Both the position numbers and the translations under genes were made by a program. Shown piece by piece: positions 38,701-44,700 of a DNA stretch of 64,000 bases. The notes under the pieces were generated by a model, which was not told the DNA's origin, ran no database searches, and saw only the letters and a program-made list of their open reading frames with translations. Within the stretch, counting starts at the first letter, position 1, and each line of letters starts with the position of its first letter. The DNA is from Actinostola sp. cb2023 (taxonomy: Eukaryota; Cnidaria; Anthozoa; Actiniaria; Actinostolidae): positions 175,001-239,000 of the forward strand of contig JAUJYZ010001083.1 of NCBI GenBank assembly GCA_033675265.1, in the 5' to 3' direction.

Positions 38701-41700
38701 CGAGTTGTTTGACCCAATAACCAAGGTGCTTAGTTAACGAGTTGTTTGACCCAATAACCAAGGTGCTTAGTTAACGAGTTGTTTGACCCAATAACCTAGG
38801 TGCTTAGTTAACGAGTTGTTTGACCCAATAACCTAGGTGCTTAGTTAACGAGTTGTTTGACCCAATAACCAAGGTGCTTAGTTAACGAGTTGTTTGACCC
38901 AATAACCTAGGTGCTTAGTTAACGAGTTGTTTGACCCAATAACCTAGGTGCTTAGTTAACGAGTTTGACCCAATAACCAAGGTGCTTAGTTAACGAGTTG
39001 TTTGACCCAATAACCTAGGTGCTTAGTTAACGAGTTGTTTGACCCAATAACCAAGGTGCTTAGTTAACGAGTTTGACCCAATAACCAAGGTGCTTAGTTA
39101 ACGAGTTGTTTGACCCAATAACCAAGGTGCTTAGTTAACGAGTTGTTTGACCCAATAACCAAGGTGCTTAGTTAACGAGTTTGACCCAATAACCAAGGTG
39201 CTTAGTTAACGAGTTGTTTGACCCAATAACCTAGGTGCTTAGTTAACGAGTTGTTTGACCCAATAACCTAGGTGCTTAGTTAACGAGTTGTTTGACCCAA
39301 TAACCTAGGTGCTTAGTTAACGAGTTGTTTGACCCAATAACCAAGGTGCTTAGTTAACGAGTTGTTTGACCCAATAACCTAGGTGCTTAGTTAACGAGTT
39401 GTTTGACCCAATAACCAAGGTGCTTAGTTAACGAGTTGTTTGACCCAATAACCAAGGTGCTTAGTTAACGAGTTGTTTGACCCAATAACCTAGGTGCTTA
39501 GTTAACGAGTTGTTTGACCCAATAACCAAGGTGTTTTAGTTAACGAGTTGTTTGACCCAATAACCAAGGTGCTTAGTTAACGAGTTGTTTGACCCAATAA
39601 CCAAGGTGCTTAGTTAACGAGTTGTTTGACCCAATAACCTAGGTGCTTAGTTAACGAGTTGTTTGACCCAATAACCTAGGTGCTTAGTTAACGAGTTGTT
39701 TGACCCAATAACCAAGGTGCTTAGTTAACGAGTTGTTTGACCCAATAACCAAGGTGCTTAGTTAACGAGTTGTTTGACCCAATAACCAAGGTGCTTAGGT
39801 AACGAGTTGTTTGACCCAATAACCAAGGTGCTTAGTTAACGAGTTGTTTGACCCAATAACCAAGGTGCTTAGTTAACGAGTTGTTTGACCCAATAACCAA
39901 GGTGCTTAGTTAACGAGTTGTTTGACCCAATAACCAAGGTGCTTAGTTAACGAGTTGTTTGACCCAATAACCAAGGTGCTTAGTTAACGAGTTGTTTGAC
40001 CCAATAACCAAGGTGCTTAGTTAACGAGTTGTTTGACCCAATAACCAAGGTGCTTAGTTAACGAGTTGTTTGACCCAATAACCTAGGTGCTTAGTTAACG
40101 AGTTGTTTGACCCAATAACCTAGGTGCTTAGTTAACGAGTTGTTTGACCCAATAACCAAGGTGCTTAGTTAACGAGTTGTTTGACCCAATAACCAAGGTG
40201 CTTAGGTAACGAGTTATTTGACCCAATAACCAAGGTGCTTAGTTAACGAGTTGTTTGACCCAATAACCAAGGTGCTTAGTTAACGAGTTGTTTGACCCAA
40301 TAACCAAGGTGCTTAGTTAACGAGTTGTTTGACCCAATAACCAAGGTGCTTAGTTAACGAGTTGTTTGACCCAATAACCAAGGTGCTTAGTTAACGAGTT
40401 GTTTGACCCAATAACCAAGGTGCTTAGTTAACGAGTTGTTTGACCCAATAACCTAGGTGCTTAGTTAACGAGTTGTTTGACCCAATAACCTAGGTGCTTA
40501 GTTAACGAGTTGTTTGACCCAATAACAAGGTGCTTAGTTAACGAGTTGTTTGACCCAATAACCTAGGTGCTTAGTTAACGAGTTGTTTGACCCAATAACC
40601 AAGGTGCTTAGTTAAGGTGCAGTAATACGGGCAACAAAATCGTGCAACTTGTCGCGCAACATTGTTGCGTTGCAAGTTGCAGAGCAATGTTTCTCGTATT
40701 ACCACCGTTCGCGCAACTTGTCGCGCAACACATTTTCGTGTTGCAGGTTGCAAAACTTTGTTGCATGAAGTAGAAAGAGCTTCTACTTTGCGCAACAAAG
40801 TTTTGCAACCTGCAACAAATGACCGAAAATTACATTTGTTGCGCGCCAAGTTGCGCGAACGATGGAAATACGAGAAACATTGCTCTGCAACTTGCAACGC
40901 AATCTGAAAACGTTGCGCGACAAGTTGCACGATTTTGTTGCTCGTATTACCGCACCTTTAACGAGTTGTTTGAAAATAAATATTTGAACATTTGGTGCCA
41001 TGATGGTGTACATACGTACACTTCATCAGTTTCGGATTTTAAAATAGCTCAGTACAGTGCGAATAAATATGAAAATAAGGAAAGAAAGAACAAACTATAC
41101 ATAAAAATAAAAAATAAATACACTTTATGAGGGTAACTAGAATTACATATGTAATGTTTATTTTCACTCTACATATGATTGACATTTAGCGTGCGTGTAC
41201 CCACAATCCCCCAGTCTGGGACTAAATTGCTCAGTCTAGTTTCCGCCCTCAGAATATTGAGGAGAGAATGTGACTGCTGTCTAGTGAGCAGTCTAGTATT
41301 CTGCTACGAACAGGGTATTACATAAAATTTGTGTTTTACGACTGCGCCATATCGTATGGTTGTGAACCCCTCCCTCCCCAATCCCCGGCCGTGACTGCCG
41401 ATTTGGGGGAGGACGGGAGGGGGAGGACGGGACGGGAGGGGAGAACGGGAGGGGGAGGATGGGAGGGAACGCGGGCTCGCAACAACTAATCGTTTTATTT
41501 TTGTGTCTAGTTTTGGAATGCTTCATGATGGCGACGATAACAAATGTAGAGTAGGATTCCGTCGGTTCATCATGTCACCTGCGTTATACTTGTCGGGTCG
41601 ACCACAGTTCTGGTCAACATGCAGTCGAGACTACGTTAGACGGTTTTTGCTGTAAGTATGAATAACGAAACGTTTGCTGTAAGTATGAACAACGAAACGT

Positions 41701-44700
41701 TTGCTGTAAGTATGAATAACGAAACGTTTGCTGTAAGTATGAACAACGAAACGTTTGCTGTAAGTATGAATAACGAAACGTTTGCTGTAAGTATGAATAA
41801 CGAAACGTTTGCTGTAAGTATGAACAACGAAACGTTTGCTGTAAGTATGAACAACGAAACGTTTGCTGTAAGTATGAACAACGAAACGTTTGCTGTAAGT
41901 ATGAACAACGAAACGTTTGCTGTAAGTATGAATAACGAAACGTTTGCTGTAAGTATGAACAACGAAACGTTTGCTGTAAGTATGAACAACGAAACGTTTG
42001 CTGTAAGTATGAATAACGAAACGTTTGCTGTAAGTATGAATAACGAAACGTTTTTGCTGTAAGTATGAATAACGAAACGTTTGCTGTAAGTATGAACAAC
42101 GAAACGTTTGCTGTAAGTATGAACAACGAAACGTTTGCTGTAAGTATGAACAACGAAACGTTTGCTGTAAGTATGAACAACGAAACGTTTGCTGTAAGTA
42201 TGAACAACGAAACGTTTGCTGTAAGTATGAACAACGAAACGTTTGCTGTAAGTATGAATAACGAAACGTTTGCTGTAAGTATGAACAACGAAACGTTTGC
42301 TGTAAGTATGAACAACGAAACGTTTGCTGGAAGTATGAATAACGAAACGTTTGCTGAAAGTATGAACAACGAAACGTTTGCTGGAAGTATGAATAACGAA
42401 ACGTTTGCTGTAAGTATGAATAACGAAACGTTTGCTGGAAGTATGAATAACGAAACGTTTGCTGGAAGTATGAATAACGAAACGTTTGCTGTAAGTATGA
42501 ATAACGAAACGTTTGCTGTAAGTATGAACAACGAAACGTTTGCTGTAAGTATGAATAACGAAACGTTTGCTGTAAGTATGAATAACGAAACGTTTGCTGA
42601 AAGTATGAATAACGAAACGTTTGCTGTAAGTATGAATAACGAAACGTTTGCTGTAAGTATGAATAACGAAACGTTTGCTGTAAGTATGAATAACGAAACG
42701 TTTGCTGTAAGTATGAATAACGAAACGTTTGCTGTAAGTATGAATAACGAAACGTTTGCTGTAAGTATGAATAACGAAAACGTTTGCTGTAAGTATGAAT
42801 AACGAAACGTTTGCTGTAAGTATGAATAACGAAACGTTTGCTGTAAGTATGAATAACGAAACGTTTGCTGTAAGTATGAATAACGAAACGTATTGCTGTA
42901 AGTATGAATAACGAAACGTTTGCTGTAAGTATGAATAACGAAACGTTTGCTGTAAGTATGAACAACGAAACGTTTGCTGTAAGTATGAATAACGAAACGT
43001 TTGCTGGAAGTATGAATAACGAAACGTTTGTGTAAGTATGTATTTTGTATTTCGTTGATGTTTTGAGCATCAACGAGCACCGGTGCAATCAACCCAAGGC
43101 AACATCCTTATAATCCTACCAACGTACACCTACACCAATGGTAGTCCAAGGTTTCACTGTAATAATGAATACAATGAACTTCTATGTCAATAGCAAGGGG
43201 TGGGGATGGTGTCTAAATGACGTACCCTCAGAACATCCTGATCTTCGGGCTCGCGCGGCCCTCCCTGGAACCATCTACGATGCTGACCACCAGTGTAGAG
43301 TACAATACGGTCGAAACTCATCGCATTGTAAGGGCGTGACGGTAGGTGACATTATTCATATCGAGTCGTTTTCGTATCAGTGGGAAGATTTAGGCGCATT
43401 TGATCTTTTTTATTTATTTATTTATTTATTTATTTTTTATTATTTTTATTATATTTTTTATTTTTTATTTTTTTAAATATTTTTATTGCAATAAATATTC
43501 TTACAATATTACAATCAATACTATAATATTACTACAATAATGCTACAATGATACTGCAATAAACTACAATAATACTACAGTAACACTAACACAACAACAC
43601 TACACTACAACAATAATATCATATCCATATGCGAACTTGCGCCATATAAATATTACATTATTACTATTATTAAGTAGTTACGGTACAGTTCGTGTCGTGC
43701 GGTGACCGTGCCGTGTCAAAGCATTCTGATTGGTTGAGTAATGATTTTGCGCGCTGTGATTGGTTGAATAGATGTCTTCGATTCCGTACCGTGACCGTAA
43801 CTCCGTGCTGTAGGTTTCCCAGTCATACGATAACGATTCCAATGCATTATTTTATTGTTAGTCGGTTGTTCCTGGTAGAAACTCAAACCCAGGTTCCCGC
43901 TCGTTCTCAACTTACAATGAATTTTATTATTATTATTTTTATTATTTATTTATTTATTTATTATTATTCTACATATGTAGTGATGGGAAACCTTTACAGA
44001 TTAAATATAAACATTTAGAATGTTGTCAATGTAGATAATAATAATAATTATTATTATTATCGTTATTACTTATTTTTGGTCTTTAAGTTTAGTTCCCTAT
44101 TCACAGATGTAGAGAATAAACCGCTGTGAATAAACCGTTATTATTATTATTATTATTATTATTATTATTATTATTATTATTATTATTATTATTATTATTA
44201 TTATTATTATATTATTATTATTATTATTATTATTATTATTATTATATTATAATAATTATTATTATTTTCTTATTATAATTGTGGTACTTGTTGTCGGCAG
44301 GATATGTGTAGTACGTTATGGTGTAAGGTCGGTTATTCTTGTCAGTCTAGACTAGAACCGGCGGCTGATGGGTCAGAATGCGGCAAGAAAAAGGTGATGT
44401 CTCCTCCACATTCATTCATCCATTCATGCATGCGTACATGCGTGCATTCAATCATTTTATGTTCTTTAGTTAGGACCTCCCTGAAAATCATATCTGAGTG
44501 GAGCATCTTATTATTATTATTATCCATTCATGCGTGCATTCATTCATTCATTCATTCATTCATTCATTCATTCATTCATTCATGCGTGCATTGCTTCAAT
44601 CAGCTATTAGAAGTCCTTGAATCTCATTATTTGCTTCAAATGACGGGCAAACACTGCCCTCCATGTGCTGTCAAACAGAAAGTATTCTATTGAAAACTTT

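Follow-up and report, generated by a model that had tools for sequence, protein, structure and literature searches.

The window analysed here, a stretch of 64,000 nucleotides of Actinostola sp. cb2023 (contig JAUJYZ010001083.1, positions 175,001 to 239,000 of the forward strand), carries a gene of the ADAMTS family in which a metalloprotease exon runs without interruption into a tandem array of 5' splice sites (donors). The assignment to this family is based on the metalloprotease, TSP1 and spacer parts of the gene, with matches to ADAMTS-1 and ADAMTS-4 and with Pfam placing spacer and TSP1 domains downstream of the array (PF05986, 6.1e-22; PF19030, 7e-16). The exon at the array is called exon 8 and the intron that follows it intron 8, a numbering by analogy taken over from an initial annotation of the same DNA. 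In the following lines, as elsewhere, positions are those of the window and a slash marks the exon-intron border:

41511..41651, + strand: ADAMTS metalloprotease exon, ending in CGGTTTTTGCT/GTAAGTAT; open frame, match to ADAMTS-4/1, AG acceptor at 41509-41510
41646..43026, + strand: donor array of 51 full 27-bp units (Tandem Repeats Finder (TRF) and script), the first 6 bases exonic, 44 of the 51 units with GTAAGTAT
43027..43040, + strand: truncated 52nd unit, TTTGTGTAAGTATG, with the 45th donor (script and word count)
43194..43341, + strand: next ADAMTS exon, donor ACG/GTAGGT; open frame, match to ADAMTS-4/1

Segmentation of the repeat by script gives 51 full units, of which 48 measure 27 bp, two 28 bp and one 29 bp, while TRF reports 51.6 copies over 41646-43040 with 97% matches; the roughly 51 copies counted in the initial annotation are thus real, and only the limits given there, 41643..43036, have to be moved by three to four bases. 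The repeat starts within the last six exonic bases (TTTGCT, 41646-41651), with the donor at 41652, which bears out the earlier description of a unit that opens with the end of the exon and its donor. Two exact unit forms predominate (AAT in 23 units, AAC in 18) and are interspersed along the array, and small insertions are found in three units. The GT has been lost in seven of the 51 full units, as GGAAG in five and GAAAG in two, the very number of copies previously estimated. Whereas GTAAGTAT is present 45 times inside the array, the rest of the window holds one copy on the + strand and one on the - strand, which excludes chance. The 424-Mb assembly contains 42 exact copies of the unit in its AAT or AAC version, every one within this array.

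When the two exons flanking the array are joined from the first donor, the frame stays open and the product matches ADAMTS-4 (E 6.7e-12) and ADAMTS-1 (E 1.5e-10) without a gap at the junction, in agreement with the exon-intron assignment first proposed. Splicing of each of the 45 GTAAGTAT donors to 43194 in silico gives an open product with donor 1 and a stop with each of the other 44, because the frame of the exon continues as CTG TAA into the array. The initial annotation had offered, as one of several options, a neutral expansion in which the first donor is used; since donor 1 alone among the 45 gives an open product, this is the best reading. Excision from the first donor likewise restores a proper ADAMTS or TSP1 match both in the window and in the paralogues. 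Searched against a set of 5.8 billion proteins, the two-exon peptide has no homologue at E 0.001, and two Pfam scans of the other frames of the window return nothing above the cut-offs.

The array is probably a donor-anchored minisatellite of the type known as a "mirage", i.e., a tandem growth over an exon-intron border that is tolerated since its first copy is the one spliced. A short duplication over the ADAMTS exon border, comprising six exonic bases and 21 bases of donor and intron, would have grown to 51 units, the first copy providing the working exon end and donor and the remaining copies being intronic. Judging from the reading frame, donor 1 is presumably the one used in life; transcripts from the other donors would carry premature stops and be degraded by nonsense-mediated decay, and the array would have no function beyond being tolerated. 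Tolerated growth is supported by a unit private to the locus, by recurrence of such arrays in the window gene and its paralogues, and by the minisatellite-dense DNA in which they lie. Minisatellites with a period of at least 9 occupy 39,737 of the 200,000 bp of C214:1-200000 (about 20%, with 5,000 bp of N) and 19,490 of the 64,000 bp of the window; a share of some 20% is unusually high for an animal genome.

The original report of mirages is said to be that of Canestro in 2002. In the accessible part of a later account, the term designates tandem repeats over exon-intron borders in the amphioxus Adh3 and globin genes, which are said to vary in length and to leave regular splicing undisturbed (PMC3087553); the available text of PMC3902484 adds PGBD5 and troponin C. 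As far as these sources go, the likeness to Adh3, BflGb6/BflGb9, PGBD5 and troponin C extends to repeats that span the border, splice signals within the units, occurrence at both 5' and 3' borders and in several genes, and probably a variable copy number. Here, the repeat crosses the border with a unit that includes part of the exon, and the splice signal is intact in many but not all units (44 of 51 with GTAAGTAT); the recurrence covers both kinds of border, with seven donor arrays spread over three ADAMTS genes and one acceptor array. As to length instability, the comparison is between gene duplicates within one assembly, with 11 and 2 copies at one donor, and as to normal splicing, the frame analysis agrees as far as the reading frame goes. 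Searches of the assembly with COX1 and GFP, which bear on a cephalochordate host like that of the amphioxus mirages, gave no match, the GFP control likewise giving none. By comparison with the 51 units of 27 bp in the window, BflGb6 has 3 or 6 units of 150-160 bp and the units of Adh3 measure 10-72 bp in the same partial sources.

Another point of comparison is the minisatellite of human IFI6, with a unit reportedly 12 bp long. It also lies at an exon end with donors in its units, "provides multiple splice donor sites", and has two downstream units in use, according to the parts available (PMC4526556; title also cited in PMC2572611). While these downstream units give protein isoforms in IFI6, no later copy of the window array would be expected to act as an isoform donor in this way, a stop arising in the spliced frame from each of the 44 later donors. 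The gain of introns through tandemly duplicated AGGT-containing sequence (Rogers 1989; Gao and Lynch 2009, both as cited in the accessible part of PMC3087553) shares with the array duplicated splice signals that are raw material for new introns; unlike in that process, no new intron is seen here and the donors remain within one existing intron. Full-text searches of the literature, most subscription papers being beyond their reach, brought up neither an ADAMTS case nor a donor array of 51 units. Altogether, the donor arrays look like mirage repeats and not like a new device for the regulation of splicing.

Further upstream, the same gene carries a second donor array, which the initial annotation overlooked, and a far larger satellite:

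28007..28215, + strand: ADAMTS metalloprotease exon ("exon 5"), donor CACAAG/GTTAGT; ADAMTS-1 match, E 5.6e-13
28177..29467, + strand: second donor array, 88-bp unit, 15 donors (TRF; 15 matches to CACAAGGTTAGT), the first 39 bp exonic
30352..30457, + strand: ADAMTS exon with the zinc site HEIGH, donor ACACAA/GTATGT, without a donor array (sequence read)
30514..40615, + strand: 37-bp satellite of about 274 copies (TRF), filling most of the 30458-41510 intron

The 88-bp array begins 39 bp ahead of the end of the 28007-28215 exon, so that it too crosses the border. With the HEIGH exon ending at 30457, the intron that precedes exon 8 measures 11,053 bp (30458-41510); its 37-bp satellite (10.1 kb) starts 57 bp past the exon end and leaves the donor outside. 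Within the last unit of this satellite, at about 40614-40957, an apparent TTAA-flanked element with long inverted ends is seen by eye and resembles a small non-autonomous transposon of the piggyBac type. Neither the exons of the window gene upstream of 28007 nor one short exon expected in the 28215-30352 interval could be located.

Several repeats near other exons of the gene stand apart from these arrays. Two are not counted among them: one, at 49636-50004, stops about 9 bp short of an acceptor, the other, at 51389-51770, begins at intron base 10, and the units of both contain no splice site. At 47471-47509, the donor GATTG/GTAATAATAAT of another ADAMTS exon, read by eye, passes directly into a TAA microsatellite, and a 36-bp array at 50592-50843, about 75 bp past an ADAMTS donor, has a unit with the donor-like TTTGGTAAGG and no anchoring to an exon. 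RNA structure at the end of exon 8 and the first units (41560-41862) was considered and discarded, with a z of 0.88 and 74 of 100 shuffles folding equally well or better.

Two neighbouring ADAMTS paralogues, genes A and B on contig C819, carry five more donor arrays with units of 28/41, 71, 74, 85 and 98 bp, all unlike those of the window, as well as arrays of other kinds (g coordinates refer to the reverse complement of C819:138001-168000):

g2887-3801: gene A, donor array, 85-bp unit x 10.9
g5604-6079: gene A, donor array, 71-bp unit x 7
g8657-8846: gene A, array over the stop codon (read by eye)
g15345-15741: gene B, 28/41-bp units with 11 donors, after an earlier exon; exon joined to the next matches ADAMTS-4 at 2.7e-5
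g16130-16422: gene B, 74-bp unit x 4, after the exon equivalent to window 28007-28215; similarity to the window exon E 8.8e-5
g17531-19106: gene B, 98-bp unit x 16, after the exon equivalent to window 41511-41651; joined exons match ADAMTS-5 at 5.8e-5
g26107-26340: gene B, in-frame coding array with a 12-residue repeat, APSKVPPYATTQ (read by eye)
g29555-29970: gene B, acceptor-spanning array (read by eye)

The window array is thus not unique, further arrays being present in its own gene and in the paralogues; in two diverged paralogues, arrays made of different units stand at the same pair of exon ends. The exon-by-exon inspection behind these results covered ADAMTS genes, donors more systematically than acceptors. 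The exons themselves are established to different degrees. In gene A, splicing of the first donor of the 71-bp array to the next exon yields a full TSP1_ADAMTS domain, at 9.7e-16 against 0.067 for the exon alone, while the 30-residue exon at the 85-bp array, with no database match, rests on an open frame, splice signals and near-identity in a duplicate of the gene; exon 4 of gene B, at the 28/41-bp array, has by itself no match in PDB or Pfam. The duplicate of gene A (C819:200001-210000) shows how far such arrays can move: its exon is intact and followed by 2 units at the donor where gene A has 11, with one donor-word match against 11 and no GTAAGT in its second unit, so that array length shifts without loss of the exon. 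The 71-bp array is common to both copies of the gene (TRF, 7.0 units in gene A against 5.6 in its duplicate). So is the stop-codon array, at 3.0 units each, that of the duplicate running to the end of the stretch read. In three other paralogues (L011, L013 and L014), no array lies over the two matched exon ends, among six donors that were not all read base by base.

This recurrence raises the question as to whether donors attract arrays. Altogether, 43 donors were placed, 16 in the window gene (15 by script and one by eye), 6 in gene A and 15 in gene B (three and seven by script, the rest by eye, with one donor between the 28/41-bp and 74-bp arrays included for gene B) and 6 by match in the three other paralogues; seven of the 43 are spanned by an array. 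A model of random unit-length seeds, run on 16 donors of the window and 20 of the 30-kb C819 piece, yields an expectation of about 0.8 donor-spanning arrays (0.76, or about 0.79 with the added donor) against the 7 observed, and outside the window there are 5 against 0.59 expected. In five arrays other than the 27-bp one, the donor hexamer of downstream copies is less variable than the rest of the unit (4/288 against 159/3912, p 0.017), all four changes falling in the 71-bp array and none in the remaining four. These results weigh against growth that is merely tolerated: from the excess of arrays over the expectation, mutation or retention seems to favour donors, a pattern that would be accounted for by a donor-linked mutational process or else by selection that keeps spare donors. 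The excess is only suggestive, because the model is rough and was applied to one gene family that was itself found through homology to the window array. In the window array, the donor hexamer and the rest of the unit vary alike (7/300 against 19/1050). With all six scored arrays pooled, the 28/41-bp array standing outside the scoring, the hexamer counts are 11/588 against 178/4962 (p 0.03); over eight donor bases, four arrays pooled give p 0.026 and the three without the window array 6/248 against 109/2498, which is not significant (p 0.18). As units within an array are not independent, the hexamer p values are optimistic.

Genome-wide, the class of tandem donor arrays envisaged by the initial annotation leaves no trace as an enrichment of two donor words at periods 12-27, a design that would detect one of the seven donor arrays. 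Tandem pairs of GTAAGTAT occur at 372 places, hardly more than the 345 of the reversed word. For tandem AGGTAAGT the count of 326 falls far below the 16,213 of its control, an excess of the control that is presumably due to simple tetranucleotide repeats; among the first 100 places listed, matches are clumped in long arrays. Two more arrays carry GTAAGTAT at 27-bp spacing by pattern match (C119:83398-84569, and C274:611254-612639 or beyond). Donor scores of at least 9 are reached on 6 of 136 array strands against a shuffle mean of 2.5 and maximum of 5, a weak enrichment, and scores of 6, 7 or 8 show no clear excess over shuffles; the window array itself scores 5.9. Of the candidate donor arrays inspected in the 200 kb of C214, none was tied to an exon, exons being unannotated there. 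That minisatellites preferentially arise or survive at 5' splice sites in this genome is on balance doubtful.

A more active role, suggested in the initial annotation as a U1 docking platform, would have the repeated donors recruit several U1 particles that protect or speed the transcript or keep U1 from other sites. The pairing on which it is founded holds: among 35 U1-like matches in the assembly, the two best (L040 and L041, E 2.2e-40 and 4.1e-40) both begin with ATACTTACCTG, so that GTAAGTAT can pair over eight bases with the 5' end of U1, and 45 such sites are found within 1.4 kb; the three exonic bases, GCT, all depart from the consensus. A platform of this kind could also draw on the excess of donor-spanning arrays and on the absence of any changed downstream hexamer in four of the six scored arrays. 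U1 has a footprint of about 35 nt, 23 upstream and 12 downstream (Sharma 2011, as quoted in the accessible part of PMC6002489), and the donors are spaced 27 nt apart, which makes it hard for adjacent sites to be occupied together. Suppression of premature polyadenylation for the 11-kb intron fares no better, as the array comes downstream of this intron, and neither AATAAA nor ATTAAA occurs in intron 8. With the GT lost in seven units of the window array and a donor as variable as its surroundings, with no genome-wide surplus of tandem GTAAGTAT or AGGTAAGT at periods 12-27, and with arrays over an acceptor and a stop codon that lie beyond any U1 docking, a U1 platform is very unlikely.

Alternatively, some transcripts could use later donors, all leading to a stop, in which case array length would act as a dial setting the amount of ADAMTS mRNA that survives. 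Exon definition favours short exons such as the 141-nt exon 8, which speaks against such a dial, as does an array length that is not seen to be kept, with 2 against 11 copies at another donor in a sister gene. The stop produced by all 44 later donors is what the dial needs; moreover, the part of PMC6002489 available describes a preference for whichever of two comparable donors is intron-proximal, and human IFI6 uses two downstream repeat units as donors (PMC4526556, in part). Taken together, this mode of control is unlikely. Finally, near-identical arrays of short units are hard to assemble, which makes the exact array length uncertain and brings up an assembly artefact or a collapsed repeat; in view of a 64-kb window with 0 N bases, the interspersion of the two main unit forms, clean edges of the array to exon and intron, and similar arrays at other loci, this is extremely improbable. 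Tolerated border-spanning growth, with the first donor spliced, remains the preferred explanation.

The window array belongs to a known kind of repeat, of which it is a striking example. The accessible text of PMC6002489 describes as unknown the way in which, of two comparable donors, the intron-proximal one becomes favoured, and 45 identical donors after one exon, the first alone preserving the protein, constitute a natural series for the study of donor choice, which the sister arrays of 2, 4, 7, 11, 15 and 16 units extend. That minisatellites across exon borders can be frequent within one gene family has a bearing on the lengthening of introns and on the origin of new splice sites. What merits the attention of specialists is the local excess of arrays at donors, together with their recurrence at the same pair of exon ends in two paralogues; if minisatellites are indeed favoured at donors, this genome would provide a wealth of natural tests of donor choice by the spliceosome, with dozens of identical donors on offer.

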